Of a stretch of DNA of 64,000 nt, positions 3,268-24,231 are shown one piece after another; position 1 is the first letter of the stretch, and each line of letters begins with the position of its first letter. The position numbers and the translations under genes are program-made. Below the pieces are notes generated by a model, which was given only the letters and a program-made list of their open reading frames with translations, was not told where the DNA came from and searched no databases. The stretch is from positions 5,208,001-5,272,000 of the forward strand of contig NZ_CP151726.1 of assembly GCF_038443385.1 (NCBI RefSeq), written 5' to 3'. This DNA is from Stieleria varia. GTDB lineage: Bacteria > Planctomycetota > Planctomycetia > Pirellulales > Pirellulaceae.

Positions 3268-4518
3268 TCAGCCAGCTGCGACGCGGATCAAGCCATTTTC
3301 GGTTCGCAGAAACAAGCTATCACCGCTCACAGCGGGGCTGGCAAGAATCTTTTCACCGATGTCCGATTCACCGATCACTTCGCCTTCGTCCCCACGGTCG
3401 GCCACGACAACACATTTTCCGTCCGCGTCCAGGATGTAGATACCGGTTGCCGTCATCACTGGCGTGGCCCAAACATTGCTGAGTTTTCCAAGTCGAGCTT
3501 GCCAAAGCACGCTTCCATCGCTCAGGGAGCCGGCGACCAGCACGCTGCCTCTACCCATGTAAACGCGATCTTGTGAAACGACCGGCGTGCATCGCTGCGG
3601 TCGCAGTTTTGAGCTTTCCCACGCGATCGATGCGATTTCACCGTCACTCAAGTTGTCATCCAAACGCAATGCGGTTGTGTTGCCACCGGGAATGATGACG
3701 AAGGGATCCGAGTAGGCGATCGACGCAGTGCCATCGCCGCCGAAATCAAAATGCTGAACGGTCTCGCCGGTCAGTCCATCGATGATGTCCACGCTGGATC
3801 CATCATTCAGAATAAATCCGGTACGTTGATCTTTCAAAGTGATCGGTTGTGGGGACGACCAATTGGAGCGTGCTGATCGGTCGATCGTCCACAGAACCTC
3901 GCCGGTCGACGCGTCCACCCCGGCGGCAAACGAGTCTCCTTGATTCTCCAATTGCACCATCACGACACCACCACTGACGACGGGAGAGCTACTCATGCTG
4001 ACGTCGTTGCCCGTTTTGGGATGATCGAGCGCCAGGGCTCGGTACCATTGCAGCCGACCCTCCAGGTCATAGCAAACTAGGTCACAACTGCTGAAGAGTG
4101 CGAAGACTCGCTGCCCATCGCTGGCCGGTGTGGGCGACGCGTTGCTGCTGGTGGGGTGAGTGAAGGGGCGTCCCGTCGCTCGCATCGGGCGCGACCAATT
4201 CTTCACGCCGGTTTCCACCGAAAAGGACTCGACATACAGGTCACGCTCGTCTTCACCACCGCAACCCGTCACGATGACTTGATCACCGATCACCAGCGGC
4301 CCGCCGATTCCTCGTCCGGTGGTACGGATATTCCAGGCCACGTTTTCACCCGACTCGACATCAAACGTAGCGGGTGTTTTGGCATCAGGTGCGCAACTCT
4401 TGCCGCCTCCACGGAACGAAAGCCAGTCCTGGGACGAGACGTTCGTGGACGAAATCAATGGCAACAGCAGAAAACACGTCAGCGGAATGAAGCGAATTGC
4501 AGGAGGTTGATGGTTCAT
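3268..4518 (-). CDS. Secreted PQQ-like beta-propeller protein
   Basis: The protein has 416 residues from the chosen ATG at 4518. A longer frame would begin 26 residues earlier, but that extension is polar and the chosen Met is followed directly by a signal peptide (hydrophobic LTCFLLLPLIS, then cleavage near the SSQ-D site). The mature protein opens with a W-L-S-F-R-G-G-G segment and carries repeated blade motifs such as VYMGRGSVLVAGSLSDGSVLW, GVDASTGEVLW and YILDADGKCVV, typical of the PQQ/quinoprotein-like propeller fold that is abundant in planctomycetes. Such proteins lie in the periplasm. Many lack bound PQQ and act as scaffolds, so an enzyme activity cannot be assigned. No cytochrome domain is present. 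Confidence 0.8.
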   Translation of the reverse strand: MNHQPPAIRFIPLTCFLLLPLISSTNVSSQDWLSFRGGGKSCAPDAKTPATFDVESGENVAWNIRTTGRGIGGPLVIGDQVIVTGCGGEDERDLYVESFSVETGVKNWSRPMRATGRPFTHPTSSNASPTPASDGQRVFALFSSCDLVCYDLEGRLQWYRALALDHPKTGNDVSMSSSPVVSGGVVMVQLENQGDSFAAGVDASTGEVLWTIDRSARSNWSSPQPITLKDQRTGFILNDGSSVDIIDGLTGETVQHFDFGGDGTASIAYSDPFVIIPGGNTTALRLDDNLSDGEIASIAWESSKLRPQRCTPVVSQDRVYMGRGSVLVAGSLSDGSVLWQARLGKLSNVWATPVMTATGIYILDADGKCVVVADRGDEGEVIGESDIGEKILASPAVSGDSLFLRTENGLIRVAAG

Positions 4519-4644
4519 GATCGAGATCGGCGTTTGAGGAAAAATGATGTTTCGGTCTGGGCACAGTCTGTGAACAAGGCGGCGCTCAATGGACACGACC
4601 TACCCTTCGGGCGCGGGTTAAACGAAAATTAAACGGCATTGTGT

Positions 4645-5841
4645 TTACTCGGCCTCGGGAATTGCGGCTCCGGACGGATCGGTAAACCGGAATTGGAACT
4701 GCCAGTCTTGCGCCCATGGTTCCGTCTGTGCATTTTGAAGCACTTTGATCAAGATCGCGTTGTCGCCGGGTTGCAGTTCACAGAGTCCGACATATTGGTC
4801 GATGCGTGTGCCGGAGTGGTAAACGTTGTTAGCAAGAACCAGACGCCCGTTGACCCAGACCTTGTTAGCAGTGATGCATCCCAGTCGTGCCTCGGCAGGT
4901 CCGGCACGTTGTGGATCCACTTTGAAATTGACGAAAGCGTAACTCACGGCGTCCTTGGCATTGGCAAGTGATGGATTCAGATCCACCATGCCCATTTCTG
5001 ATTCGCTAGTGACGGATTTCCACTCGACCGGTCCGTCCTTTCCCTTTTCTTTCTGAGCCGCTGCATCGGACATCGCGATCGGGCTGCCGTCGGTCAAGTA
5101 ACGTTGTTCAGGGGGATACGCGGTGTCGAAATGCTTGCTGTCCGTGTTATCAAAGGGACCAATGATCTGCCAATTTCGAACCAAGCCGAGCGCTGCGGCA
5201 ACATCGACTTCGATATCCAATTTGGCCAATGCATCGGCCGCGGTCTTGAGCTGATCGGGTCTTCTCGCATCGTTGACGATCGACTGATAAGTTGCGATCG
5301 CCGATTCACGGTCGTCTGTCTTGACTGCAATACGTGCGTTCTCCAACAGCGTCTTGATCTTCAGGTAACGTACGGGCAGCGAAGGATCAGATGCTGCATC
5401 GGCCAACAGTTGTTGTTGATCGGCACCGTTTGCGATCAAGAGCTGGAACGCCAGATAGCGTCCGTCGGGATCGTTGCCGCGATCGTCAAAGTACTGTTGC
5501 ACCATCTCAGTGGGAAAGTCACCGTTGTCAGCAACGTCACTCGCAATGCTCCGCAGCCAGTTCTTGCCGCGTTTGGTTGCACCGGCGAATGAGTCTAAAA
5601 CAAGGCCGATCCGCTCAGCGGGCAGCGAAGCAACGACGGACGCGGACGCAACGGCTCGGGTGTGAGCTGCAGCGGAGTCATCGACTTGGGTGATCTGTTC
5701 CAACGCAGCAACAACGGCTTGATCTTGTGCCGCGACGTCCGTCTGAGATTTCTGGTCAGCAAGGACTGCTCTGGGTGTGTGGATGCCAAGGGGAAGCAAC
5801 AATAGGCAAGCGATAACGGGAAAAAGCGGTTTGCGTTTCAT
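4645..5841 (-). CDS. Secreted hypothetical protein with C-terminal sugar-binding-like domain
   Basis: The protein has 398 residues from ATG 5841. The longer frame adds 14 polar residues before the Met-Lys-Arg-Lys of a clear signal peptide (IACLLLLPLGI, cleavage near VLA-D). The middle part is alpha-helical, HEAT/TPR-like and alanine-rich (about 45-215). It is followed by a segment beginning LVRNWQIIGPFDN, which in planctomycete secreted proteins commonly introduces a beta-sandwich domain. The end (KVWVNGRLVLANN, GDNAILIKVLQN) resembles galactose-binding/jelly-roll folds that hold an accessory sugar-binding site. No catalytic residues are evident. It lies 126 bases upstream of the PQQ gene on the same strand, so the two may be co-transcribed. 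Role in polysaccharide handling is inferred only. Confidence 0.7.
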   Translation of the reverse strand: MKRKPLFPVIACLLLLPLGIHTPRAVLADQKSQTDVAAQDQAVVAALEQITQVDDSAAAHTRAVASASVVASLPAERIGLVLDSFAGATKRGKNWLRSIASDVADNGDFPTEMVQQYFDDRGNDPDGRYLAFQLLIANGADQQQLLADAASDPSLPVRYLKIKTLLENARIAVKTDDRESAIATYQSIVNDARRPDQLKTAADALAKLDIEVDVAAALGLVRNWQIIGPFDNTDSKHFDTAYPPEQRYLTDGSPIAMSDAAAQKEKGKDGPVEWKSVTSESEMGMVDLNPSLANAKDAVSYAFVNFKVDPQRAGPAEARLGCITANKVWVNGRLVLANNVYHSGTRIDQYVGLCELQPGDNAILIKVLQNAQTEPWAQDWQFQFRFTDPSGAAIPEAE

Positions 5842-6052
5842 GACCAACGGACGCCGATGGGAGGATTTTGTGTGTGCGGCCACACAGCGAGCACACTTCG
5901 TCCAAAGTTTACCGAACTGAAAACCTCCCCGCGAGCAGACGGGACAGATTGCCTGCCAGTTTCACTCACCAGGTTCACCCGCGTGTCTCGCGATGCGATA
6001 GAATCGTCGGGCAGCCCAGCCTTTTCTTCTTCCCAGACGCGGTTTTCATACG
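5842..6052. other. Divergent intergenic region
   Basis: 211 bases between the minus-strand secreted protein and the plus-strand DUF1559 gene. It must hold both promoters, but I see no strong -35/-10 pair or operator that I would assign. Confidence 0.35.
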
Positions 6053-7345
6053 ATGCGGCAGACTCAACCGATGCGCAGGCCTGGATTCACGGTCCTGGAG
6101 ATGTTTGCCGTCCTGCTGGTCATTACGGTCTTGATCTCGTTGTTGTTGCCCGCCGTCCAGTCTTCTCGAGAGGCCGCACGGCGATCGAGTTGCCAGAACA
6201 ATTTGCTGCAGGTCGGGATGGCGGTGCACCTGTACCACGAGGCATTTGACCATTATCCGGTCCAATTGCACGGAACGGATGGCAACGTCACGCCTGGGAA
6301 GGATAACGATCGCAGACTCAGTATCTTTGTCGGTCTGCTGCCGTTCATGGATGGCAATGTGCTGTTTGAATCGATCCAAAGCGAATTGGTAGAGAATGAC
6401 TTCGACGAAATGGACATGTGGATGGGTGATCCGGCAGCATACAACGCGGAAATGCGCGTCGACGAGTCAGAAGGATATGAGTCAGTGGCAGAGTCCGATT
6501 CTGAAACCAAGACACAACGAAAGTACTTTCCCGCAGGTGGTCCTGAGCCATTCACCCAAACATACCAACCGTGGATGATCGAGACGTCGCCACTACGATG
6601 CCCAAGTGATCCAGGTATTGGGGCACCTGGTCTTGGACGCATCAACTATGCGGCATGCTTGGGCGATGGCATTGTGGGGTGCAACACGGGGCCATTTGTC
6701 GATCGCGCCGGCACATGGGTGTTTGATTCGAACATGCAACGGCAGTGCGAAGCATCGATGCGTGGTATCTTTGTTCCACGCGTGGTCACCCGTAAATCCG
6801 ATGTGACGGATGGACTGTCCCACACGATTCTGTTGGGTGAAATCGCGACCGACCTCGGCGACCAAAACCGTTTCACCACGCCATGGTTTGGTGCAAGCGA
6901 AGCCGAACTATGCGAGAATCCCGTTCGGGGAGATTCCAATACGGAGCCGGAGCGGCCCATGTATTGGATCGACTCGCCGAAGCTGTTGACGAACACCGAT
7001 AGCAGTTGGAATCGAGGGATGTCTTGGGCGGACGGCATGCCGTTGCACACGTCCTTTCAAACCATCTGGCCGCCAAATTCGCCGATCGTTGTCACGGCAA
7101 ACTCGGATACGGCGTCTGGGATCTTCTCCGCCAGCAGTCGGCATCTGGGCGGCGCGAGCGTTTACTTTGCCGATGGTGCAATCCGGTTCATCAGCGACAG
7201 CATCAACGCCGGGGATGCGACTGGCTCCATCGTTTGCATCGGCAGCAGCAATCCACCGGGCAGTGAAAGTCCGTTTGGTGTTTGGGGAGCACTCGGGACA
7301 AGATCATCCAACGAACTGAAGTCATTTTCGTTGCCTGATCGTTGA
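6053..7345 (+). CDS. DUF1559 protein with prepilin-type N-terminus
   Basis: The 430-residue protein starts with a type IV prepilin-like leader: R-P-G-F-T-V-L-E-M, with cleavage expected after Gly11 and Glu at +5 of the mature protein, then a hydrophobic helix to about residue 31. The DUF1559 (SBP_bac_10-like) region follows, including the S-R-E-A-A-R-R-S-S-C-Q-N-N-L segment and the C-terminal V-Y-F-A-D-G-A-I-R-F-I motif. These families are greatly expanded in planctomycetes and resemble type II secretion pseudopilins. The real function is unknown. A second Met at codon 7 (6071) would give a shorter leader and is equally possible, because neither ATG has a strong Shine-Dalgarno sequence. It is monocistronic as far as the window shows. 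Confidence 0.88.
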   Translation: MRQTQPMRRPGFTVLEMFAVLLVITVLISLLLPAVQSSREAARRSSCQNNLLQVGMAVHLYHEAFDHYPVQLHGTDGNVTPGKDNDRRLSIFVGLLPFMDGNVLFESIQSELVENDFDEMDMWMGDPAAYNAEMRVDESEGYESVAESDSETKTQRKYFPAGGPEPFTQTYQPWMIETSPLRCPSDPGIGAPGLGRINYAACLGDGIVGCNTGPFVDRAGTWVFDSNMQRQCEASMRGIFVPRVVTRKSDVTDGLSHTILLGEIATDLGDQNRFTTPWFGASEAELCENPVRGDSNTEPERPMYWIDSPKLLTNTDSSWNRGMSWADGMPLHTSFQTIWPPNSPIVVTANSDTASGIFSASSRHLGGASVYFADGAIRFISDSINAGDATGSIVCIGSSNPPGSESPFGVWGALGTRSSNELKSFSLPDR

Positions 7346-7400
7346 TTCCGTGAGCCGACGGCGCTGGGCTGGGCTGTTCAAAATTTGGCGTTGTCACTGA

Positions 7401-7458
7401 TTTTGGTTTTGCATGTTTTGTTCCGCGAAGCTCCTTCCGTCGAGCTTGTCTCGGCGGA
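7401..7458 (+). repeat. 58-bp dispersed repeat, copy 1
   Basis: Identical over 58 bases to 34085-34142 in the same orientation. Its last ~26 bases (ttccgtcgagcttgtctcgg core) recur inverted near 16656-16681. In both full copies it sits in a gene-free repeat cluster. Confidence 0.8.
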
Positions 7459-7496
7459 GGAAACAACTGACGGCTACTTCGCACGCCAACAGAATT

Positions 7497-7543
7497 TGCC
7501 CACCACCCGCGAATCGCCTTCGGCGATTCGCGGGTGGTGGGCA
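7497..7543. repeat. Perfect 22-bp inverted repeat (hairpin)
   Basis: Arms 7497-7518 and 7522-7543 are exact reverse complements with a 3-base loop (ttc). It follows the DUF1559 gene by about 150 bases and no T-run follows, so it is a palindromic repeat, not a typical intrinsic terminator. Confidence 0.85.
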
Positions 7544-7661
7544 GGTGAATGTGCTTCTGTTGACGGTAGCTACCAGTTGCTGCTCCGAACCGGGACAAGC
7601 CCGGCGGAAGCAAGAAAAAATCTTGCGGAAAATAGGACCAAAACCCCAACTTTTTAGCAGT

Positions 7662-7794
7662 CTAGTGCATCATCCGGTCTTGATTTTGAGGTTAACCGTT
7701 TTGGCGTTAGCCACGGTTGTGTCACGAAAACCGTGGCTAACGCCAAGACGGCTCATCTACCGAACCCACGTTCTAAGACTGGACGATGCACTAG
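7662..7794 (+). repeat. 133-bp palindromic element, copy 1
   Basis: One of three copies (others 41398-41530 and 57716-57848), each exactly 133 bases and bounded by CTAG. Terminal arms of about 20 bp begin ctagtgcatc, and an inner palindrome centres on the gtgtcacg loop. This copy differs from the others at a few bases (catccggtct instead of cgtccagtct). There is no coding capacity. The structure is that of a MITE or large REP/BIME. Confidence 0.85.
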
Positions 7795-7900
7795 GGCATT
7801 GCGCACACTGTTAGGGTATTTGAACGCGGTTTGCGCAGTGTAGGCCCGCTCCCGGACCTTGCTTCGCTCGATCCGACCTCCCCCAAGTTCCTTGGCGGAG

Positions 7901-7951
7901 GTGACAGTAGACAAGAAACGGCTTGAAGAAAAACGCCGAAACATCAAGTCA
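7901..7951 (+). repeat. 51-bp dispersed repeat, copy 1
   Basis: Begins gtgacagtagacaagaaacg and matches 17005-17055 with only a few substitutions. Both copies follow a g-g-a-g-g-t-g context and end in catcaagtca. Confidence 0.75.
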
Positions 7952-8070
7952 ACGCCAAATTCCGATCAGCCCAGCGCTATCGGTTCACAAGAATTGCTCA
8001 ACGCACGAGATCAACAGCCCGCTCACGCGTCGCGGCTCACGGCGTTTGGTGGTGCCGTACGATGTGTCGA

Positions 8071-8550
8071 TCAGTGCTTGATCGAGTTTGCGATTTCACC
8101 CAGCAAGCTGCGGACCGTGTTGGCGGGTTGATAGCCGATGCGGTGCGCAACCACTTTTCCTTCCGGCAAACCGATCAATGTGGTCGGATACGCAGGGACC
8201 TTGATTCGCGATAGTGTTTCCGCATTGTGTTCGGGTGTGAGTCGAATGGCGACATATCCATCTCGCAACTGTTGTGTCACCGATTGATCGCACCACGTGT
8301 CACGTTTCATCGCGTCACAGTAGATGCATTGACGTGACGTGATGAAAATCACCATCGGTCGCTTCAACTGACGGGCTTGTCTCCAACCTGCTTCCAGGTT
8401 GTCGTGCCACTGCACCCCTGATGCGGGAGACATCTCGGCAGTTGTGCTGACAAGCTGTGGTGTTTCCGCTGAACTTGACCCTACGGACAATAAGAGCAGG
8501 AGGGATCCGAATCCCATTGCAACCATGATTCTTTTCACGGCAGATTCCAA
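8071..8550 (-). CDS. Secreted thioredoxin-like protein (DUF255/YyaL-type fold)
   Basis: The 159-residue protein has a signal peptide (MGFGSLLLLLSVG, cleavage near SSA-E) and one thioredoxin-fold domain. The redox motif is C-I-Y-C (about residues 86-89), in the context ITSRQCIYCDAMKRDTW, which resembles thioredoxin-like proteins that reduce or monitor disulfides in the periplasm. The cis-proline loop is visible as VPAYPTTLIG. It probably acts on extracytoplasmic thiols or in cytochrome maturation, but no partner gene is adjacent. A start at Met9 or Met12 is possible, since the first eight residues are dispensable. It is divergent from gdhA across a 1.3-kb repeat region. Confidence 0.8.
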   Translation of the reverse strand: MESAVKRIMVAMGFGSLLLLLSVGSSSAETPQLVSTTAEMSPASGVQWHDNLEAGWRQARQLKRPMVIFITSRQCIYCDAMKRDTWCDQSVTQQLRDGYVAIRLTPEHNAETLSRIKVPAYPTTLIGLPEGKVVAHRIGYQPANTVRSLLGEIANSIKH

Positions 8551-8713
8551 TGATTAGGAAGGTTAGTAGGAATAGAGAGACAAAGTCTACTCACTTTGGT
8601 TGCTAGCGGAAACACGGAGGCCCACAAATAGGGTTTTTGGGTGGTTTGAAGCCATTGGACTGTCAAAAGGTTGGCGTTGACATTGTTTTCTCTGTCCATG
8701 TTTTCCATGCATC
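8551..8713. other. Leader region of the thioredoxin-like gene
   Basis: 163 bases between the start of the thioredoxin-like gene and the tandem array. It must hold that gene's promoter. No operator or RNA structure stands out. Confidence 0.35.
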
Positions 8714-9535
8714 GCAATCAAAGTGAGCCTCAGGCGCTAGCCGTGGGCCGGCACCACAATCCGCCTCAGGCCCACGGCTAGCGCCTGAGGCTCACTGGGG
8801 TCACCAGCTGCGCCGCAAGGGTAAAATAAACAGCAATCAAAGTGAGCCTCAGGCGCTAGCCGTGGGCCGGCACCACAATCCGCCTCAGGCCCACGGCTAG
8901 CGCCTGAGGCTCACTGGGGTCACCAGCTGCGCCGCAAGGGCAAAATAAACAGCAATCAAAGTGAGCCTCAGGCGCTAGCCGTGGGCCGGCACCACAATCC
9001 GCCTCAGGCCCACGGCTAGCGCCTGAGGCTCACCGGGGGCACCAGCTGCGCCGGGAGGGTTAAATAAACAGCAATCAAAGTGAGCCTCAGGCGCTAGCCG
9101 TGGGCCGGCACCACAATCCGCCTCAGGCCCACGGCTAGCGCCTGAGGCTCACCGGGGTCACCAGCTGCGCCGGGAGAGTTAAATAAACAGCAATCAAAGT
9201 GAGCCTCAGGCGCTAGCCGTGGGCCGGCACCACAATCCGCCTCAGGCCCACGGCTAGCGCCTGAGGCTCACTGGGGTCACCAGCTGCGCCGGGAGGGTTA
9301 AATAAACAGCAATCAAAGTGAGCCTCAGGCGCTAGCCGTGGGCCGGCACCACAATCCGCCTCAGGCCCACGGCTAGCGCCTGAGGCTCACTGGGGTCACC
9401 AGCTGCGCCGGGAGGGTTAAATAAACAGCAATCAAAGTGAGCCTCAGGCGCTAGCCGTGGGCCGGCACCACAATCCGCCTCAGGCCCACGGCTAGCGCCT
9501 GAGGCTCACTGGGGTCACCAGCTGCGCCGGGAGAG
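8714..9535. repeat. Tandem array of seven 119-bp hairpin units
   Basis: Units start at 8714, 8833, 8952, 9071, 9190, 9309 and 9428, with an exact 119-base period. In the first unit the arms at 8723-8749 and 8769-8795 are 27-base perfect reverse complements around a 19-base loop (ggcaccacaatccgcctca); the same hairpin recurs in every unit. Units differ by only a few bases, mainly in the linker (caagggtaaaataaaca versus ggagggttaaataaaca) and at ctcactgggg/ctcaccgggg. Conserved linkers rule out CRISPR spacers. The array lies between two divergent genes, so it is probably transcribed into the gdhA leader or acts as a DNA-level element. Confidence 0.95.
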
Positions 9536-9540
9536 CATCT

Positions 9541-9610
9541 CAGCCGCCACGCGATAGCGTCCGGTTCTTACACCTATACTCAGGAACCGGACGCTATCGC
9601 GTGCCGGCTG
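9541..9610. repeat. Hairpin with 20-bp arms (gcgatagcgtccggttc family)
   Basis: Arms 9548-9567 and 9584-9603 are perfect reverse complements, and outer bases cagccg/cggctg extend the stem with a mismatch. A related, less perfect copy is at 16801-16866. It directly follows the tandem array. Confidence 0.85.
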
Positions 9611-9880
9611 ATGAATAATTCGGGCTAGCGGGGCAGGAGCCGCCTCTTACTTTCCCATGGTCCACTTCGCTCCCACAAGATGGCGAATCTCCGCCACTAA
9701 ACTGCTGGCCCGAGCGCATCGATGGCCGCTGCGTAGGATATCCCTCATCGATTCGACCCATTCGCCCAGGATTCTTGCCTTCTCTCTCGGGTTACCCACG
9801 CACACTTGCGTTGAACTGAATCCCCCGCGGGAAGTGCTTTACCGCCTTGCCAAATCTTACGAGTCCCCAGGAATGTTTTT
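9611..9880. other. gdhA leader region
   Basis: 270 bases between the last hairpin and gdhA. AGGA about 9 bases before the gdhA ATG is a plausible ribosome-binding site. A 75-codon frame (9657-9884) overlaps the gdhA start but is not convincing. No clear promoter hexamers are seen. Confidence 0.4.
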
Positions 9881-11218
9881 ATGAAAGAGATCGATCAATT
9901 CATGGATGGACTGCGGAAACGCAACCCACATGAGGTGGAGTTTCACCAAGCGGTGGAGGAGGTGGTCGAATCAGTGATGCCGTGGTATTTGGACCACAAG
10001 GAATACCATCGCGAGCAGATCCTGGAGCGCACCACCGAACCGGATCGCATCATCATCTTTCGTGTCTGTTGGGAAACCGACAGTGGCGATGTCCGCGCCA
10101 ATCGCGCATGGCGAGTTCAATTCAACCATGCACTGGGACCGTACAAAGGCGGATTGAGGTTCCATCCCAGTGTGACGCAGAGCGTGCTGAAGTTTCTGGG
10201 GTTTGAACAGATCTTTAAAAACAGTTTGACCGGATTGCCGATGGGCGGAGCCAAGGGCGGTTCGAACTTCAATCCCAAGGGCAAGAGCTCTCGTGAAGTC
10301 ATGCGGTTTTGCCAGTCGATGATGGTGGAGCTGTCGCGACATATCGGGGAAGACGTCGACGTGCCTGCAGGGGACATCGGCGTTGGTGCTCGCGAGATCA
10401 GCTATCTGTTCGGCCAGTACATGCGTTTGGAAAATCGCTGGTCGGGCGTTCTGACCGGCAAGGGACAGACGTTCGGCGGCAGCGCCGTGCGCACCGAAGC
10501 GACCGGGTACGGATGCGTGTACTTTTGCGAGCACATGCTGAATCAACACGGCGAAGGAATCGCTGGTAAGACGGTTGCGATCAGCGGCAGCGGAAATGTC
10601 GCGACCTACGCAGCGGAAAAGGCGATTGAAAAAGGTGCCAAGGTTTTGACATTGAGCGACTCGGATGGATTCATCGAAGTCAAAGGTGGCTTGTCGATGG
10701 AACAATTGCAGTTCGTCAAAGATCTTAAAGAAAACCGTCGTGGGCGGATTTCGGAAGTTGCGGACACGTTTGCCGGAGTCACCTACCACGCCGACGCGAC
10801 GCCATGGGGAGTGGCCTGTGACATTGCGATGCCATGCGCGACGCAAAACGAGATGGACGACCACGATGCCAAGACACTCGTGAACAATGGCGTCATCGCG
10901 GTTTGTGAAGGGGCCAATATGCCGCTGACCAATCACGCCGCGGGCGTACTGGCCAAGAACAATGTGCTGCATGCCCCCGGCAAAGCGTCCAATGCGGGCG
11001 GCGTTGCGGTGAGCGGATTGGAACAGAGCCAAAATGCGATGCGAATCAGTTGGGACCGCGACGAAGTCGACACGAGATTGCAAAAGATCATGACGAGTAT
11101 CCACTCACGCTGTGTCGAGCACGGCGAGCACAACGGCAGGGTGAATTACGTCACGGGCGCCAATATCGCCGGATTCAAAAAGGTAGCCGACGCCATGCTC
11201 GCCTACGGCGTGGTTTAG
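9881..11218 (+). CDS. gdhA: NADP-type glutamate dehydrogenase
   Basis: The 445-residue hexameric-type glutamate dehydrogenase assimilates ammonium into 2-oxoglutarate to give glutamate in the cytoplasm. The substrate domain contains GPYKGGLRFHPS (about 86-97), the catalytic lysine in GGAKGG (Lys125) and the catalytic aspartate in PAGDIGVG (Asp165). The dinucleotide-binding fold starts at ISGSGNVA (about 234-241). S-D-S-D-G after the second strand resembles NADP-using small enzymes more than NAD-using ones, but coenzyme choice is an inference. Length matches the family (about 445-450). It is monocistronic, with the seven-unit hairpin array in its upstream region, so nitrogen-dependent control there is worth considering. 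Confidence 0.97.
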   Translation: MKEIDQFMDGLRKRNPHEVEFHQAVEEVVESVMPWYLDHKEYHREQILERTTEPDRIIIFRVCWETDSGDVRANRAWRVQFNHALGPYKGGLRFHPSVTQSVLKFLGFEQIFKNSLTGLPMGGAKGGSNFNPKGKSSREVMRFCQSMMVELSRHIGEDVDVPAGDIGVGAREISYLFGQYMRLENRWSGVLTGKGQTFGGSAVRTEATGYGCVYFCEHMLNQHGEGIAGKTVAISGSGNVATYAAEKAIEKGAKVLTLSDSDGFIEVKGGLSMEQLQFVKDLKENRRGRISEVADTFAGVTYHADATPWGVACDIAMPCATQNEMDDHDAKTLVNNGVIAVCEGANMPLTNHAAGVLAKNNVLHAPGKASNAGGVAVSGLEQSQNAMRISWDRDEVDTRLQKIMTSIHSRCVEHGEHNGRVNYVTGANIAGFKKVADAMLAYGVV

Positions 11219-17151: not shown

Positions 17152-17187
17152 TTGACTTTACGACAACGTTCGTAAACCATTACGAAC
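17152..17187 (+). promoter_or_regulatory. Likely blaI promoter region and BlaI operator
   Basis: A perfect 8-bp inverted repeat with a 4-base spacer, GTTCGTAA-acca-TTACGAAC, occupies 17168-17187. TTGACT at 17152-17157 is a good -35-like hexamer and the dyad covers the expected -10 region, although no strong -10 is seen. BlaI/MecI dimers bind dyads of this kind at their own promoters, so autorepression is the natural reading. It is 64 bases before the blaI ATG. The operator assignment is inferred from position and symmetry. Confidence 0.7.
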
Positions 17188-17251
17188 ACTGTCATAAATC
17201 CGGTTGGCGAGCGGCAGAAAGCGGACTCCTTTTCGATAACACAAAGCGATC

Positions 17252-17677
17252 ATGGCTAAGAAACGACCGGCGCTCAGACTGACCAGCGGAGAAGTCGACT
17301 TGATGGACTTGCTCTGGCGACACGGACCGATGACGCTGCAACAGGCTCACCGCGCGTTCGAGTCGGATTTCCCGAGTAAGTCCGTCGGGTACACGACGAT
17401 GCAGACTCGTTTGAATCGTTTGGCCGACAAAGGGTTTGCATCGCGATCACCGGATCGACCCGCGGTGTACGCGGCTGCCATCGATCGCTCGGATGTGCAA
17501 GCTGATCATTTGGACGATGTGCTAAAGCGTTTGTCGGGCGGCAGCGTCGTTCCGCTGGTTGCACACTTGGTCCAAGATCGACAGATCGCGCCTGAGGAGT
17601 TGGCCGAGCTGAAGCGTTTGGTTCGCCAAGCGGAGAAGGATTTGAAGAATGCATCGCGAAACGAGGAGGCAGAATAA
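17252..17677 (+). CDS. blaI: BlaI/MecI/CopY-family transcriptional repressor
   Basis: The 141-residue winged-helix repressor has the family's N-terminal sequence L-T-S-G-E-V-D-L-M-D-L-L-W (about 10-22) and a recognition helix around VGYTTMQTRLNRLADKGFA. The C-terminal dimerisation helix ends near residue 130 (EELAELKRLVRQAEKD). Known BlaI proteins bind dyad operators as dimers and are inactivated when a BlaR1-type protease relays a signal. The start is well placed for the family. The stop overlaps the ATG of the BlaR1-like gene by one base. In planctomycetes such pairs are frequent and often not tied to beta-lactamase; no lactamase is present here, so 'blaI' names the family only. Confidence 0.92.
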   Translation: MAKKRPALRLTSGEVDLMDLLWRHGPMTLQQAHRAFESDFPSKSVGYTTMQTRLNRLADKGFASRSPDRPAVYAAAIDRSDVQADHLDDVLKRLSGGSVVPLVAHLVQDRQIAPEELAELKRLVRQAEKDLKNASRNEEAE

Positions 17678-20265
17678 TGAGCGAGCCGGTCGCAGCATTC
17701 TCGCTGCATTCCCCCTTGATCGTCACCACGATGATGCTTGCCAGCTGCGGCCTCGTCGTCGCTTGGATCTTGAGAACGTTTCAAATCCGGTCGCTTCGGC
17801 TTCGCTCTGTCTTGATCACTGGTGTATTGCTGCAGGGAGCAATGTTTGCACGCATTCCGATTCACCTCGGGCTTTGGGAATCCAACTCAGCGGGTCATGT
17901 GGACGTAGTATTGGATGAATCGAGTTTGCCGAGTTCCTCTTTGGGCGGCTTGCCAAACCAAGCGAGTTCGTTTGACGCGTGTGTCGGGGAAATGGCAAAT
18001 GGCGAAGCGGTCCGTTCAGCGGAGAATGGTTCCGCGTTAGGACTGCTGGGAAATGGCGACGTGGCGGTGCTGGGGCGATGGTTTGCTGCGATGGAGTGGC
18101 AGCGCATCACCACGGTGCTTTGGTTCGTTTGGGCGGTTGGCGTGCTGCTGCTGGTGACGCGAACGATTTTCACGTATCTGCGAATGCTGCATCACGTGCG
18201 CCGCTTGCCTCTCGCGGATCAGAAATGGCAGAGAGACTGGCGAACCGTACTACGGACACATGGAGTGGCATCTCGCGTCTGCCCGGTCCTGCAGTCAGAA
18301 TCCGTTGGTCCCATGTTGGTTCGCTTGCCCGATCAATACGCCCTCGTCATTCCTCGCGCGTTCTGGGAACGCTTGACCGACATCCAGCGGCAAGCCGTCA
18401 TGACGCACGAAGCGCAGCATTTGTCTCGGCGAGACGTGTGGCGACAGCTCGCCGCTCGATTCATTGCGACCATTCATTGGTTCAATCCTGTGGCGTGGTG
18501 GGCCGTCCGTCGACTCGATCAAACCGCAGAACTGGCATGCGACCGCGCGGTGGCACAACGGGGCAACGAATACTCTGCGGGATTTGCCGGCGCTCTGCTC
18601 ATGCTGGTTTCAGACATGCCGGCACAGAACGTTCACCAAGTAGCTTGCACGGCGATGGCCACGCCGCCGCTGACACGCCGCATCACCGATCTTCTCCACC
18701 CTTCAGGTCACAAGGACTCCGTTATGAAATCCCTAGCGTTGCTATTGCTGTCGGTTGTCGTCGTGATGGCCTCCTGCATTCAGTTCCGTCTCACTGCGGC
18801 CGACACCACCACACAAGATTCACGAGCCGAGGTTGGCTCCGGCGATGCATTGCCGGTGATCGACGACGCCGAATTGGCAGAATTGGTCACTCTGTTTCGC
18901 TCGCTGGACGACAGTGACGGAGCGTCCAAGCAACTCCTTGCGTTGACAGAATCGACGGGCGGAAAACTTGCGTTGAGTGGATACATCGATCAACTGCGTG
19001 GCGATGCAATGCGATCGATCAAGGATCGGGCGATCGAGGTGTATGGCGAGGCAATGTTTGAGAAGTCACCCGAGGGTCTACGTTTACGTGATCAAGGCAA
19101 GGCCGATAAATGGACCAATGCTGCCAGGCGTCTTGATGAAAGCGTACGCGGTATTCAGGCTGCTGCGTCCGAAACGGTCAAGCAACTTGATGACAGCAGC
19201 AATGCAGGCGTCTTGCTGAAAAGATTCCTTTCCGACAAAGAGGCCTCGATCGCTTTGTTGTTGTTCGAAATGGACTCTGGAGGCGATCCCGTAGCCGCGT
19301 TCATCAACAAAGCATTGACCAAGATCTTGGTGCAACGAGGTGACGGCCAATATCAGGTGATCGCGTCAGCGAAGGCGGAAGCGGAGAAAGAAGCGGCGAA
19401 GTTTGAGACGGCAGCATTGATTGCAAAACGTCTGAAGAAACAGCTTCCGATTTTCGCCGGCGAATTGGACATGACCGACGAAACCAGCAAACGCTTCGCC
19501 GACTATTTGAATAAACCTCTCATGTCCAACGTGATCGCCATCGAGCTGGCCAACAAGAACGGTGCCACTCCGGTCTCCGCCGTGGAGAAGCTCTTTGAGT
19601 CCCTCGAGTCGGCTTGCCAGGAAACCGCCAACGGACTGAGGCTTCGCGACGGTGAGGTGCGGGACAAAGTAGACGAGCTATGCATGATCGTTGATCGAGC
19701 CGAGACGCTGGTGCAACGCACGGGCGAACGACTGATCGAGATCGCCGACTCAATGGCCGATGACGAAGTGTCCCAGAGACTGGCCGCAGTGATGCGTCAA
19801 GACTTGCTGGCCACTCTGGTCGCCGCGGAGATCCCCTACAGCGACTCGATGGCTGGTGACGAACTGCGGACGCTGTTGACGCAGGTCTTGGAAAAGGGCG
19901 ACTCAGGAGGTTTGGTTGTGCGAAGCGATCGAGCCGACGAGCTGTCGGAGAAAATGTCTGAACTCTTGGAAACCTGTCGAAGCATTCGCCGCTATGCCGT
20001 CATGGTCGATGAACTGCTGGAGCAGATGGCAGATCAAGAATTGGTCGCAAAGATGGGCGATGTCGGTCGCTATTTGATCTTGGATGAAGTCCGCCGATAC
20101 GTCGAGTCGGCACGCCCCGATGCCGTTACGCTGGTCCGTGAACACTTGGTTCAAGATGATGGAAAGGGAACGCTGACGCTTCGCGATTCCAGCCGTGTGC
20201 TGATCGCACAACTGACACGTCAAGCCGACCGGCTGAATCAAGCGAGCCCGGCCGATGATTTCTAG
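17677..20265 (+). CDS. BlaR1-like M56 membrane metallopeptidase with large C-terminal domain
   Basis: The 862-residue protein has membrane segments near residues 16-32, 43-60 and 144-170, and the zinc-protease motif H-E-A-Q-H at about 248-252 (VMTHEAQHLSRRD). A downstream acidic residue lies in TAELACDRAVA. Another hydrophobic segment (about 350-367, SLALLLLSVVVVMASC) precedes a roughly 495-residue helical, Glu/Asp/Lys-rich domain that resembles no penicillin-binding sensor. In BlaR1 systems the protease domain lies in the cytoplasm and inactivates BlaI, while the C-terminal part outside senses ligand. Here the outer domain is long and coiled-coil-like, so the signal is unknown. The ATG overlaps the blaI stop, and the stop overlaps the next gene by 11 bases. 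Confidence 0.85.
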   Translation: MSEPVAAFSLHSPLIVTTMMLASCGLVVAWILRTFQIRSLRLRSVLITGVLLQGAMFARIPIHLGLWESNSAGHVDVVLDESSLPSSSLGGLPNQASSFDACVGEMANGEAVRSAENGSALGLLGNGDVAVLGRWFAAMEWQRITTVLWFVWAVGVLLLVTRTIFTYLRMLHHVRRLPLADQKWQRDWRTVLRTHGVASRVCPVLQSESVGPMLVRLPDQYALVIPRAFWERLTDIQRQAVMTHEAQHLSRRDVWRQLAARFIATIHWFNPVAWWAVRRLDQTAELACDRAVAQRGNEYSAGFAGALLMLVSDMPAQNVHQVACTAMATPPLTRRITDLLHPSGHKDSVMKSLALLLLSVVVVMASCIQFRLTAADTTTQDSRAEVGSGDALPVIDDAELAELVTLFRSLDDSDGASKQLLALTESTGGKLALSGYIDQLRGDAMRSIKDRAIEVYGEAMFEKSPEGLRLRDQGKADKWTNAARRLDESVRGIQAAASETVKQLDDSSNAGVLLKRFLSDKEASIALLLFEMDSGGDPVAAFINKALTKILVQRGDGQYQVIASAKAEAEKEAAKFETAALIAKRLKKQLPIFAGELDMTDETSKRFADYLNKPLMSNVIAIELANKNGATPVSAVEKLFESLESACQETANGLRLRDGEVRDKVDELCMIVDRAETLVQRTGERLIEIADSMADDEVSQRLAAVMRQDLLATLVAAEIPYSDSMAGDELRTLLTQVLEKGDSGGLVVRSDRADELSEKMSELLETCRSIRRYAVMVDELLEQMADQELVAKMGDVGRYLILDEVRRYVESARPDAVTLVREHLVQDDGKGTLTLRDSSRVLIAQLTRQADRLNQASPADDF

Positions 20266-21568
20266 CCTTCTAGCAACAGCGTTCCTGATCCTCATCGCGA
20301 CCTCCACTGCGTTTGCGCAACAGGCTCCGCTCTGCGACGACAACACCTTTGTGCGCCGGGCATCCCTCGATTTGATCGGACGGATCCCAACCGTCGACGA
20401 GCGAGAATCGTTTCTGAGCACAGGCGACCGGGCGGCGTTCGTGGACCAGTTGCTGGACCATCCCGAGCACGCACGTTTTTGGTCTCAACATTGGGCGACG
20501 TTGCTCGTGGGACGTTTCCCTATCCGAGAAACCGACCGTGAGCTACTGCGTGCTTGGATCGAGCAGTCGATTTTGGCAGACAAGCCGCTGGATCGCATGG
20601 CGTTTGAGTTGATCAGCGCGTCCGGCGTGTCCACCTTGGACGGCCCGACGAACTACATGATCGCCAACCGTGACGACCAAGTTCTGCGGCTGGGGCGTGT
20701 GTTCTTGGGAGTCCAGTTGGACTGTACCAAGTGTCATGATCATCCGACGCAGCGGTGGACGAACGCAGATTATGTTGCGATGGAACGTTTCTTTCGGCCG
20801 TTGCGATTTCGAGAAGTGTCTGGCGGGGTGGAGGTTTACGACGAAGGCAACCTGTCCAGCGACGCGGAGTTGCCGCAATTTCTAAGTGGACGCGAACCGC
20901 TCACATCGGCTTGGCGCCGCGAACTGGCGTTGATGGTCGTACAGAGCAAGCCCTTCAGCAGAGCGATGGTCCAACGTGCATGGCATTGGACAATGGGCGG
21001 CGGAATCAGTGGCGACGTGGATGCCGTCGATCGTGATTCGAATCCGATTGCTTTTGCGAGCTTGGAACAACTCTCTGAGCGTTTTCGCAGCAGCCGATTT
21101 GACTTGGACGAACTGCTCCGCGAAATCTGCTTGTCACCCGGCTATCAATCGCAAGTCGCTTTGGACGCGGCGAACGATTCGCCGTCAAGTGAATGGGAGC
21201 CTCAACGAGCGACCCGCATGCTGCTGCCCGAACAGTGGATCGCGTCGGTGGCGATCTTGACCAATGCGAACACCGCGAATTCGCGTCCGCCATCGGCCGC
21301 GGAGCTCTCCGAGCAAACGCGTGAGTTGCTGGGGCAGCCGCAAAGCACACTCGGCAGCGATCCCTTTGATCGGACGCCGACCAGTCAACAAACATTACGT
21401 GGTTTGAATCGCAGCGTGTCGTCCAGCTTCACGCAACTGGACAAGTTGTTTCTTGCGGCGTGGGGCCGTCCGCCGACCGACGCAGAACGAGAGTCATTGG
21501 GGACGTTGACGTCTGATCAATCCTTGTTTGTGATCATCCAAAGCAATCCTTTTTTGTTGAATCAGTAA
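20255..21568 (+). CDS. Secreted DUF1549/DUF1553 cytochrome-like protein
   Basis: The 437-residue protein has a signal peptide (LLATAFLILIATSTAFA-Q). The DUF1549 core starts at about residue 31 (RRASLDLIGRIPTVDERESF) and includes a CxxCH heme-binding motif, C-T-K-C-H (about 155-159). DUF1553-like elements follow (FSRAMVQRAWHWTMGGG, about 236-252). It lacks the N-terminal PSCyt1 domain of larger members such as the gene at 52411, so it is a short version. Planctomycete DUF1549/DUF1553 proteins are always paired with DUF1501 proteins and are thought to be envelope proteins, but their function is not established. The ATG lies inside the blaR1-like gene by 11 bases. The DUF1501 gene follows by 1 base. 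Confidence 0.85.
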   Translation: MISSLLATAFLILIATSTAFAQQAPLCDDNTFVRRASLDLIGRIPTVDERESFLSTGDRAAFVDQLLDHPEHARFWSQHWATLLVGRFPIRETDRELLRAWIEQSILADKPLDRMAFELISASGVSTLDGPTNYMIANRDDQVLRLGRVFLGVQLDCTKCHDHPTQRWTNADYVAMERFFRPLRFREVSGGVEVYDEGNLSSDAELPQFLSGREPLTSAWRRELALMVVQSKPFSRAMVQRAWHWTMGGGISGDVDAVDRDSNPIAFASLEQLSERFRSSRFDLDELLREICLSPGYQSQVALDAANDSPSSEWEPQRATRMLLPEQWIASVAILTNANTANSRPPSAAELSEQTRELLGQPQSTLGSDPFDRTPTSQQTLRGLNRSVSSSFTQLDKLFLAAWGRPPTDAERESLGTLTSDQSLFVIIQSNPFLLNQ

Positions 21569-21569
21569 C

Positions 21570-22790
21570 ATGAGACAGACCACACGCCGCGAGTGCTTGG
21601 CCGCAGCCGGATCGGTCGGACTTTGCGCCGCTTTTGGAAATCAGCTTGCCGCCGCCACGCCACGTCTCAGTCAGACAGCGCCCTTTCGACGATGCTTGGT
21701 CCTGTGGATGGAAGGGGGCCCGAGCCACATCGACACATTCATCCCCACCCGAGATGAACATGTTCAGACCGCTCTGGCGGACATGCCCTTTGCACCCGCG
21801 ATGCAAGCGTTTGTGGCGTACGCGAGCGACCTGTGTGTCGTGAAAAGTGTTGGTGGCAGAGAAGGAGAACACGTTCGAGCGTCATCGCTGCTGCACACCG
21901 GCTTTGCGCCCAGCCCTTCGTTCCCTAGGCCTTCGTTTGGATCGATGGTCTCGCATTCACGTATCGATGAAGGCCTGCCACGTTACGTGACCTTGGGCAA
22001 TCAGGCTTACGGCCCCGCGTTTCTGGGCGTGGAGAACGGTCCGTTTGTGATCAGTGATCCTGAACAAGCGATGCGTCAGATTCAGCGACTGGGCAAGCGA
22101 ACCGTAGAACTGGATGCACTGCAACGTTTCAACCAACTGCATCACTTGGGCGATTCACGGGCGATTCGTGATGCGTCCCAGCGGCGTGACGCCTCGGTCG
22201 ACTCGGTTCGGCGACTGTTGGCAACGGACTTTGGCGACGCCCTGGACACCACGCGGGCACCGTCTGATCAGCGCGCGGCGTATGGCCAAGACGAGTTTGG
22301 CAAACGGATGCTGGCTGCGCGACGACTGCTGGAGGTGGGTGTCCCGATCGTGGAAGTCCAACTGGGCGGGTGGGATTCGCATGTGGACAATCTGAGAACG
22401 GTAAATCGATTGTGCGGTCAACTGCTGCCACCTTGGATCGCGTTGATCGAAGACCTCAAGCGGACCGGACAATGGAGTGACACTTTGATCGTTTGGGTTG
22501 GAGAGTTTGGACGCACCCCCACCATCAACGGCCGAGCCGGACGAGATCACTACCCAGAAATCATTCCCGTCGTACTTGCCGGCGGCAATCTGGGCGGACA
22601 CGTCGTTGGTGCCACCGACAACCAAGCGGGCAGTCGCGTCGGGCCAAAACACACCGTCGCGGATCTGATGGCAACACTGCTCTTCCTGATGGGCTTGGAT
22701 ACTCAAACGGAATACACCACGAGCTTTGGAAGCCCCACATCGATGACAGATGGTGGAACACCCATCGATGAGATCGTGAAACTCGTCTAA
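21570..22790 (+). CDS. DUF1501 (sulfatase-like) secreted protein
   Basis: The 406-residue partner of the DUF1549 protein starts with a twin-arginine-like leader (T-T-R-R-E-C-L-A-A-A-G, hydrophobic to about residue 28). DUF1501 hallmarks are the early L-W-M-E-G-G-P-S-H-I-D-T-F segment, the central VPIVEVQLGGWDSHVDN segment and the late TLIVWVGEFGRTPTINGRAGRDHYP. The family resembles alkaline-phosphatase/sulfatase superfamily enzymes, with conserved Asp/His metal-site candidates in G-W-D-S-H and G-R-D-H. It is translationally close to the preceding gene and completes a blaI-blaR1-DUF1549-DUF1501 run. Activity is unknown. Confidence 0.88.
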   Translation: MRQTTRRECLAAAGSVGLCAAFGNQLAAATPRLSQTAPFRRCLVLWMEGGPSHIDTFIPTRDEHVQTALADMPFAPAMQAFVAYASDLCVVKSVGGREGEHVRASSLLHTGFAPSPSFPRPSFGSMVSHSRIDEGLPRYVTLGNQAYGPAFLGVENGPFVISDPEQAMRQIQRLGKRTVELDALQRFNQLHHLGDSRAIRDASQRRDASVDSVRRLLATDFGDALDTTRAPSDQRAAYGQDEFGKRMLAARRLLEVGVPIVEVQLGGWDSHVDNLRTVNRLCGQLLPPWIALIEDLKRTGQWSDTLIVWVGEFGRTPTINGRAGRDHYPEIIPVVLAGGNLGGHVVGATDNQAGSRVGPKHTVADLMATLLFLMGLDTQTEYTTSFGSPTSMTDGGTPIDEIVKLV

Positions 22791-22935: not shown

Positions 22936-24231
22936 ATGGCAGCAAATCGCCCCGGGTCCGGTTTCCGACGTTTCGTCGGCATCGGGATCATCTGGACCTT
23001 TTGGATCTCTCCGCTGGTTTGGAACGCAACTGCATGGACGCAAGACATGGCTCCATGGCAACTCGGCATGCCACAATTCAACCCCGACGCCACCGCTGCC
23101 AATACGTATACCTATAACGCAGCATTACCTGCGGCAAACACCGCTGCCAACACGAGCGCCAACACGAGCGCCAACATGAGCGCCAACATGAGCGGCGGTA
23201 CCCCGAGCTATCAACTGCCGGTGGATCCCGCTTCGGCCGCACTGGCCTCCGCCGAACTAGCCGCCACGGTCAACGGAAACGATGGTGTGTTTCAATTGCC
23301 TGGCTATCGGATGCAGGACGGCGACTCAGCGACAGATATCCAACTGGCGGCGCACGCGCAGCAACCAATGCTTGATGCGCCGACCACCGGAACTTATCCG
23401 ACACTGCCGATCGCTGATCCCGCGACATCGGACATTCCACCCGCAATCCCCGGGATGGACGAAACCTTGGGCTCGGCCATCGCACAAGACATCGCGAGCG
23501 AGATCCCGCCGCTGCAACAGGAAGTCGAATCGTGGTACATGTATCCTTGGCGATGGATGACCCAAGGATGGCAGAACCATGCCGAGTTGGGTTTGGACGG
23601 AAGCCGCGGAAATGCTCAAACGCTGGCGATTCAAACCGGTTTGGAGATGAAACGCAAAACGGATCTTTATACCTTGGGAATCGATATCGACTACCGATTC
23701 GCCAACACACGCAACCAAGTGACCAATCAAGAGCAGACGACCGAAGACAACGGGCGATTCAACTTGGACTACGACCGCTTGCTCAATGATTCGCCGTGGT
23801 CGGCGTTTGGCAAGTTCGGCATGGAGTTCGATCAGTTCAAAGCCTTTGACCTACGATTGAACTTGAACGCTGGTGTCGGATACCACTGGATCCGAAACGA
23901 TCGTACCACTCTGGTCACTCGCTTCGGTTCGGGTGCATCGAAGGAGATCGGTTCACCAGATGACGCTTGGAAACCGGAAGCTGTGTTTGGGTTGGAAAGC
24001 GAACACCAGCTCAACGCGTCCAACAAACTGAAAGCCAAGGTCGATTATTTCCCCGCCTGGGAAGACTTCAGCGACTACCGTTTGGTCACCGACCTGGGCT
24101 GGGAAATCCTGCTCAACGACTCAGAGAACTTGAGCCTGAAACTCGCTTTGACCGACCGCTACGACAGCACGCCGCAAGGTGCCAAGCCCAACGACGTGTA
24201 CTACTCCCTGTTGTTCCTGGTCAAATTCTGA
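22936..24231 (+). CDS. DUF481 outer-membrane-like protein with N-terminal Asn-Thr-rich repeats
   Basis: The 431-residue protein has an N-terminal hydrophobic segment (about 13-36, FVGIGIIWTFWISPLVWNATA) acting as signal. A disordered region follows with A-A-N-T/S-A-N-T/S-A-N-M repeats at about 68-85 (DNA 23134-23192), then a Pro/Ala-rich linker to about 190. From about 205 to the end is a DUF481-type beta-barrel: alternating strands such as LYTLGIDIDYRFANTRNQ, GKFGMEFDQFKAFDLRLNL and LVTDLGWEILLNDSENLSLKLALTDRYDS, ending in a terminal aromatic F. Such barrels are found in the outer membrane and are uncharacterised. The Asn/Thr repeats may tether or space the barrel. Confidence 0.8.
   Translation: MAANRPGSGFRRFVGIGIIWTFWISPLVWNATAWTQDMAPWQLGMPQFNPDATAANTYTYNAALPAANTAANTSANTSANMSANMSGGTPSYQLPVDPASAALASAELAATVNGNDGVFQLPGYRMQDGDSATDIQLAAHAQQPMLDAPTTGTYPTLPIADPATSDIPPAIPGMDETLGSAIAQDIASEIPPLQQEVESWYMYPWRWMTQGWQNHAELGLDGSRGNAQTLAIQTGLEMKRKTDLYTLGIDIDYRFANTRNQVTNQEQTTEDNGRFNLDYDRLLNDSPWSAFGKFGMEFDQFKAFDLRLNLNAGVGYHWIRNDRTTLVTRFGSGASKEIGSPDDAWKPEAVFGLESEHQLNASNKLKAKVDYFPAWEDFSDYRLVTDLGWEILLNDSENLSLKLALTDRYDSTPQGAKPNDVYYSLLFLVKF
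23134..23195 (+). repeat. Coding repeat encoding (S/A)-A-N-(T/M) units
   Basis: Short direct repeats of the type gccaacacgagc/gccaacatgagc run about five times inside the DUF481 gene, with almost identical DNA. This suggests slippage-prone copy number. Confidence 0.75.

Follow-up and report, generated by a model that had tools for sequence, protein, structure and literature searches.

A four-gene cassette in Stieleria varia codes for a BlaI/MecI-type repressor, an M56 sensor protease, a short DUF1549/PSD1 protein and a DUF1501 protein (Table 1). It lies in the stretch of 64,000 nucleotides analysed here, referred to as the window (positions 5,208,001-5,272,000 of the 9.72-Mb single-contig genome). 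The cassette is a variant of the BlaI-BlaR1 kind with a new type of sensor for M56 proteases, a C-terminal domain built from helical repeats. We lean towards the view that it forms a self-contained regulated unit in which this domain is a working partner of the DUF1549 and DUF1501 proteins and feeds back on their expression via the protease. The four genes, their families and their order had been named in a sequence-only reading of the window and were borne out by the open reading frame list and Pfam. The junctions given there are exact to the base, with overlaps of 1 base between the repressor and M56 genes and 11 bases between the M56 and DUF1549 genes, followed by a gap of 1 base before the DUF1501 gene. 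The further proposal of a signal-controlled DUF1549/DUF1501 system agrees with the conserved linkage and the conserved putative operator, but the sensor part is probably not confined to sensing an inducer.

Table 1. Features of the cassette, with positions in the window
Feature	Position	Strand	Length	Basis
TTGACT, candidate -35 box	17153-17158	+		read in the sequence
Operator dyad 1, TTTACGA-N6-TCGTAAA, perfect 7+7 (putative)	17157-17176	+		sequence and conservation in relatives
Operator dyad 2, ATTACGA-N6-TCATAAA, 22 bp from dyad 1 (putative)	17179-17198	+		sequence and conservation in relatives
BlaI/MecI-type repressor	17252-17677	+	141 aa	Pfam PF03965, 1.7e-21
M56 sensor protease	17677-20265	+	862 aa	Pfam PF05569, 8.4e-31, residues 132-337
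New C-terminal domain of the M56 protein	18853-20262	+	residues 393-862	hhalign, AlphaFold2, alignments
Short DUF1549/PSD1 protein	20255-21568	+	437 aa	Pfam, AlphaFold2
DUF1501 protein	21570-22790	+	406 aa	Pfam PF07394, 2.5e-79

The order of repressor, M56 protein with repeat C-terminus, short DUF1549/PSD1 protein and DUF1501 protein is kept in many Pirellulaceae and in other Planctomycetes. Since it recurs in many genera, this order is more than a product of chance. Within the family, a profile of the repeat domain matched 22 of 241 genomes and 11 of 68 genera; within the genus, it matched 8 of 14 genomes (S. varia included). Two overlapping genome draws resulted in 4 matches in 392 genomes for the phylum and 9 in 397 for the class. 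Class searches around genomes G251 and G442 (1 and 14 genomes searched, respectively) found no more carriers. Among the matches listed in the named scan, the closest carriers were Pirellulaceae and unclassified planctomycete assemblies. The repeat domain, short DUF1549 and DUF1501 also follow each other in a Verrucomicrobiales assembly (L134), where the contig is cut before any protease part.

After merging of broken pieces and of overlapping loci from the two scans, 35 distinct repeat-domain loci were counted, window included. The short DUF1549 gene is located directly downstream of the repeat domain in 32 of these. The three exceptions are two fusions to a GH39-like part (L112 and L113) and L114, a fragment of 98 residues located at the edge of a contig and not followed by a DUF1549 gene, which was scored as a miss. 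Wherever the contig continues, the next gene after the short DUF1549 codes for a DUF1501 protein (28 of 28 loci). Apart from the two GH39 fusions, 26 loci carry the domain fused to a protease, 3 carry a free domain and 4 are cut before that part becomes visible. The protease-fused forms all have the HExxH motif (26/26), and BlaI is found upstream of 25, the remaining one being cut by the contig edge. A reverse scan (tblastn) with the DUF1549 alignment supported the linkage from the other side. The 20 best of the 80 best loci listed (E<=4e-59; next 1e-45), all of the short DUF1549 kind, have the repeat domain upstream, in contrast to none of the remaining 60 matches listed, where a repeat domain upstream of the longer DUF1549 was looked for. 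The Verrucomicrobiales locus L134 is among the 20. The linkage of BlaI-BlaR1 to DUF1549/DUF1501, which the sequence-only reading had suggested searching for, is thus both conserved and specific among the matches listed.

In the M56 protein, hydropathy predicted four transmembrane helices (residues 14-32, 44-62, 147-165 and 352-370), with the HExxH motif (HEAQH) in the third loop between helices three and four. Residues 139-369 align with the solved BlaR1 structure 8exs (E 9e-8). C-terminal to the last predicted helix, the remaining 492 residues (371-862) contained neither a penicillin-binding domain nor any other Pfam family over its cut-off. This part had been described from sequence as a charged helical domain of ~495 residues without a penicillin-binding domain; the absence of the latter stands, but the region is not anonymous. 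It consists of five tandem helical repeats of about 90 residues (393-504, 505-594, 595-689, 690-782 and 783-862). With a profile of 27 relatives and insert columns included, hhalign related all ten pairs of units with 82-96% probability; without insert columns, nine of the ten pairs exceeded 91% and one reached 46%. In the controls, reversed units stayed under 7%, and no slice taken from three other alignments exceeded 15%. The repeats escaped a BLAST comparison of the domain with itself and were detected by profile comparison.

A prediction of the C-terminal fold had also been suggested, and the AlphaFold2 model of the repeat domain (predicted local distance difference test, pLDDT, 90.1; predicted template modelling score, pTM, 0.74) shows a recurring succession in which helices are followed by a hairpin and then by a long helix. 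Foldseek searches of the PDB with the repeat-domain and DUF1549 models gave no match at E<=0.001, which leaves room for a known fold. The best VIA score of the repeat domain (Z 4.3) is uninformative for helical repeats. The window protein ends in -DDF, and -DF is the protein end in 31 of the 32 loci with an uncut end; L111 has 16 further residues after it. In overlapping loci this conservation could be explained by the 11-base overlap, since those bases also form the start of the following gene. Gene overlap cannot account for it in loci with gaps of up to 749 bases. From the sequences we infer that the -DF end may serve as a docking tail.

The repressor belongs to the Penicillinase_R family (77.1 bits vs the cut-off of 22.6), and a profile from seven such repressors matched the solved MecI/BlaI structures 1sd6, 1okr and 1sd4. 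As is typical for BlaI/MecI members, inverted repeats are located at the putative promoter of its own operon. The pattern TTACGA-N6-TCRTAA without mismatches occurs in the whole genome only in the two dyads of Table 1. A wider regulon of this repressor was rejected, because sites with at most one mismatch (14 forward, 17 reverse) did not exceed a reversed-pattern control (18 and 19). Of 23 BlaI loci compared, 20 have the motif TTTAYGAC-N4-GTCRTAAA twice 5' of the repressor gene, at a spacing of 21 or 22 bp (scores 21-28 of 28), while the remaining segments of these 20 loci scored at most 19. A TTGAC box immediately precedes the tandem operator in 19 of the 20; in the window, a sigma-70 scan reported no promoter at the corresponding box. 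The 23 loci exclude L110, a broken copy in two frames nearly identical to L103, and loci cut before the promoter; in L244 the operator was placed separately because the called BlaI start lies too far upstream. Operators of CopY/BlaI/MecI repressors have been described as TACA/TGTA, and paired operators have been discussed as two layers of repression (PMC7253601). Together with the close spacing of the genes, this anatomy suggests joint control of all four.

In three loci, namely L115 (= L107, a metagenome-assembled genome of Rubripirellula), L122 (= L057) and L126 (= L247), the repeat domain is a free protein whose N-terminus resembles a signal sequence. In these three lineages it keeps its full length and the -DF end and is located beside DUF1549 and DUF1501 genes, and in L107 and L057 the 11-base overlap with DUF1549 is present as well. 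No match to BlaI or M56 was found within these loci. Likewise, L115 and L122 have no tandem operator and L126 only a weak one, in a scan whose looser threshold lets through about 8 hits per 379 kb of shuffled sequence. In the tree the free lineages are scattered among fused ones: L115 joins the fused L097 and L126 the fused L119 (support 100/99 each). The simplest reading is that the switch was lost three times and the repeat domain kept. A free, apparently exported form adjoining DUF1549/DUF1501 in three lineages, with neither protease nor repressor seen, argues that the domain does more than sense an inducer. Probably it works together with the pair and was incorporated into the sensor in most lineages.

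The repeat domain also occurs in two secreted-looking proteins from two other classes (L112, 4335-7274; L113, 6396-9455), N-terminal to a GH39-like region with Pfam E-values of 3.7e-18 and 4.5e-13, respectively. Both contain WNEP and (S/T)EW stretches, which we take to be the catalytic motifs. L113 is surrounded by polysaccharide-export, sugar-transferase, glycosyltransferase and deacetylase genes, in an exopolysaccharide-type cluster.

A plain inducible operon, in which the repeat domain would merely sense an outside inducer without a role in DUF1549/DUF1501 function and the free forms would be leftovers of decay, is the next best explanation, although we consider it unlikely. It draws on cassettes with unrelated sensor parts. 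Among 39 M56 genes (11 of the S. varia genome and 28 in seven others), four are directly followed by DUF1549 and DUF1501 genes on the same strand: the window and L195 in S. varia, and L098 and L216 in genome G222. L195 (G000:C1:8690000-8706000, 4098-11058) is a second BlaI-M56-DUF1549-DUF1501 cassette with a CarboxypepD_reg/Ig-like sensor. L216 (941-7387, minus strand) represents a third kind, whose sensor does not match the repeat profile. By eye, the dyad upstream of L195 differs (CCTAAT...ATTAGG), and the M56 protein of L216 apparently ends in three copies of another unit. These two cassettes indicate that M56 proteases control DUF1549/DUF1501 pairs beyond the window cassette as well, that the protease can bear different sensors before such pairs, and that a pair does not need the repeat domain in order to be switched. 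Against a plain inducible operon stand the free forms themselves, since decay should preserve neither their length nor the signal-like N-terminus, the -DF end and the overlap.

Alternatively, the M56 part might tether or process the DUF1549 and DUF1501 proteins at the membrane, with transcription control being secondary. Linkage to the DUF1549 gene is indeed stricter for the repeat domain than for the repressor, but the operator is conserved and the repressor adjoins every uncut fused form, so that we regard this as quite improbable. A true beta-lactam receptor that answers penicillins or cell-wall damage in staphylococcal style is least probable by far and was dismissed, as the repressor and protease families are identical to BlaI/BlaR1 but Pfam found neither a penicillin-binding nor a beta-lactamase domain C-terminally, NCBIfam blaR1_generic reached 65.7 bits vs a cut-off of 400 and aligned residues 140-368 only, and the cassette comes without a beta-lactamase.

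If the repeat domain is a partner of the DUF1549/DUF1501 pair, the cassette may operate as follows. In the resting state, a BlaI-like dimer would occupy the two dyads overlapping the promoter and hold down expression of the four genes. The layout of the M56 protein is that of BlaR1, with four predicted helices, the protease in the third loop and a C-terminal domain that would lie outside the membrane. There the repeat domain would bind the exported DUF1549/PSD1 and DUF1501 proteins, or a polymer on which both act. An altered state of the substrate or complex would release the protease, which by analogy with BlaR1 (PMC9834060) might cut the repressor. The operon would then be de-repressed until newly exported proteins clear the signal. 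As to the ligand, our guess is an envelope or exopolysaccharide polymer. A bolder version, which we offer tentatively and think somewhat doubtful, sees in the repeat protein a third, unnamed subunit of a DUF1549/DUF1501 machinery that was built into a BlaR1-type protease. Such a machine would report its own state to the promoter, lineages losing the switch would keep the subunit, and the machine would handle envelope or exported polysaccharide, as with the GH39-fused copies. A subset of DUF1549/DUF1501 pairs with its own switch, operator and obligate third partner would provide a handle on the abundant DUF1549 family. The trigger of repressor cleavage, once found, would be the signal and probably the substrate.

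Several observations weigh against this interpretation. The aligned cleavage position of the repressor is His-Leu instead of Asn-Phe, so the pocket of the protease must differ if it cuts there. Phe at P1' is reported to be almost invariant in BlaI (PMC9834060, also the source for the Asn-Phe site). The Asn-Phe site characterises the staphylococcal proteins rather than the entire Pfam family. Three BlaI loci (L050, L052 and L124) are without a clear second dyad. At the M56/DUF1549 junction, 7 of 29 relatives scored have the 11-base overlap, as does L052 by its coordinates, but 19 of the 29 have a gap of 11-749 bases. A separate DUF1549 promoter, which the sequence-only reading had named as an objection to joint regulation, therefore finds no room in the window, where the genes overlap, but is possible in those relatives. 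The free forms all stem from metagenome assemblies, two of them with short upstream sequence (about 0.9 kb in L126 and 1.5 kb in L122), and L122 joins L133 weakly (82/91). The GH39 fusions form long branches of unsure place in the tree, and the two neighbours tested at L112 (peptidase M20-like pieces) included no polysaccharide genes.

The M56-DUF1549 gaps of the same-genus loci inspected showed no conserved promoter-like pattern, and much of their sequence consists of palindromic repeats. In L104 (9012-9765), L098 (8299-8520) and L101 (8866-9195) these resemble repetitive extragenic palindromic (REP) elements (GTTCCCAGGCGGGAGCCTGGGAAC and others), with several tandem copies of a unit of about 150 bases in L104.

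The DUF1549 protein matched PSCyt2/DUF1549 (9.7e-34; 117.6 bits vs the cut-off of 29.8) and PSD1/DUF1553 (7.8e-15; 55.4 bits vs 28.5). It carries an N-terminal signal-like helix and the sequence CTKCHDHP with a CxxCH motif. The residues C, C, H, D, H and P of CxxCHDHP are invariant in all 23 members, and haem binding is putative. AlphaFold2 modelled the protein with pLDDT 81.9 and pTM 0.85. Sequence and fold comparisons independently, if weakly, point to phycobilisome linker domains: five of the 23 members matched PBS_linker_poly, the best one with E 0.00098, ApcE was the top hit of a PDB profile search (E 0.026), and VIA aligned 122-130 residues with linker domains (Z 5.2, root-mean-square deviation 3.6-5.0), all weak matches. 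Weak DUF1800 matches were also seen in the PSD1 region. DUF1549 is present over cut-off in 60 copies in the S. varia genome, and a further match in the window (52861-53433; G000:C1:5260861-5261433) lies inside an open frame of 819 residues.

The DUF1501 protein matched its family with 267.7 bits vs a cut-off of 27 and has an N-terminal twin-arginine MRQTTRRECLAAAG. Its best PDB matches were sulfatases, all weak (E 1.1-1.7); we take the family to belong to the alkaline phosphatase/sulfatase superfamily. In the accessible text of the sources, nothing is known of PSCyt functions (PMC5615132), DUF1501 is called uncharacterised (PMC4452313), and one DUF1549 gene was proposed to be under control of an extracytoplasmic function (ECF) sigma factor (PMC2754498). 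In the literature searched, with subscription papers outside its scope, we found no assignment of a biochemical function to DUF1549, no paper treating DUF1501 and DUF1549 together and no account of either the repeat domain or the cassette. A query combining BlaR1, Planctomycetes and M56 found no paper on the subject by title.

The BlaI-BlaR1 and MecI-MecR1 systems of staphylococci and bacilli resemble the cassette in the repressor family, the M56 HExxH motif between helices three and four, the C-terminal domain after the last helix and two dyads at the promoter. In contrast, their sensor is a penicillin-binding domain instead of five helical repeats, and the cassette differs in its DUF1549/DUF1501 targets and its cleavage position. 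The PSCyt2-PSD1 (DUF1549/DUF1553) and DUF1501 pairs of Planctomycetes and Verrucomicrobia share families, adjacency, predicted export and CxxCHDHP. Unlike these, the cassette has a shorter DUF1549 (about 440-515 residues as called, the long kind having several hundred more), its own switch and, in the loci found, always a repeat domain upstream. DUF1501-DUF1800 pairs located by bacterial chitin synthases (PMC5122149) also combine DUF1501 with an uncharacterised partner and a link to polysaccharide genes, but the partner is DUF1800 and the accessible text mentions no BlaI-M56 switch. The GH39-like glycosidases share the repeat domain, although they are single enzymes without a protease and with no DUF1549 or DUF1501 neighbours found.

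Beyond close relatives, no other conserved neighbours of the cassette were found, except two clusters each reaching one more distant locus. A DUF481 gene at 22936 was rejected as a fifth member, because it is about 145 bases away with a terminator-like hairpin between and was not found in the neighbouring relatives' loci inspected. Its product (22936-24231) resembles an outer-membrane protein, with a series of NTSANTSANMSANMS-type repeats at its N-terminus.

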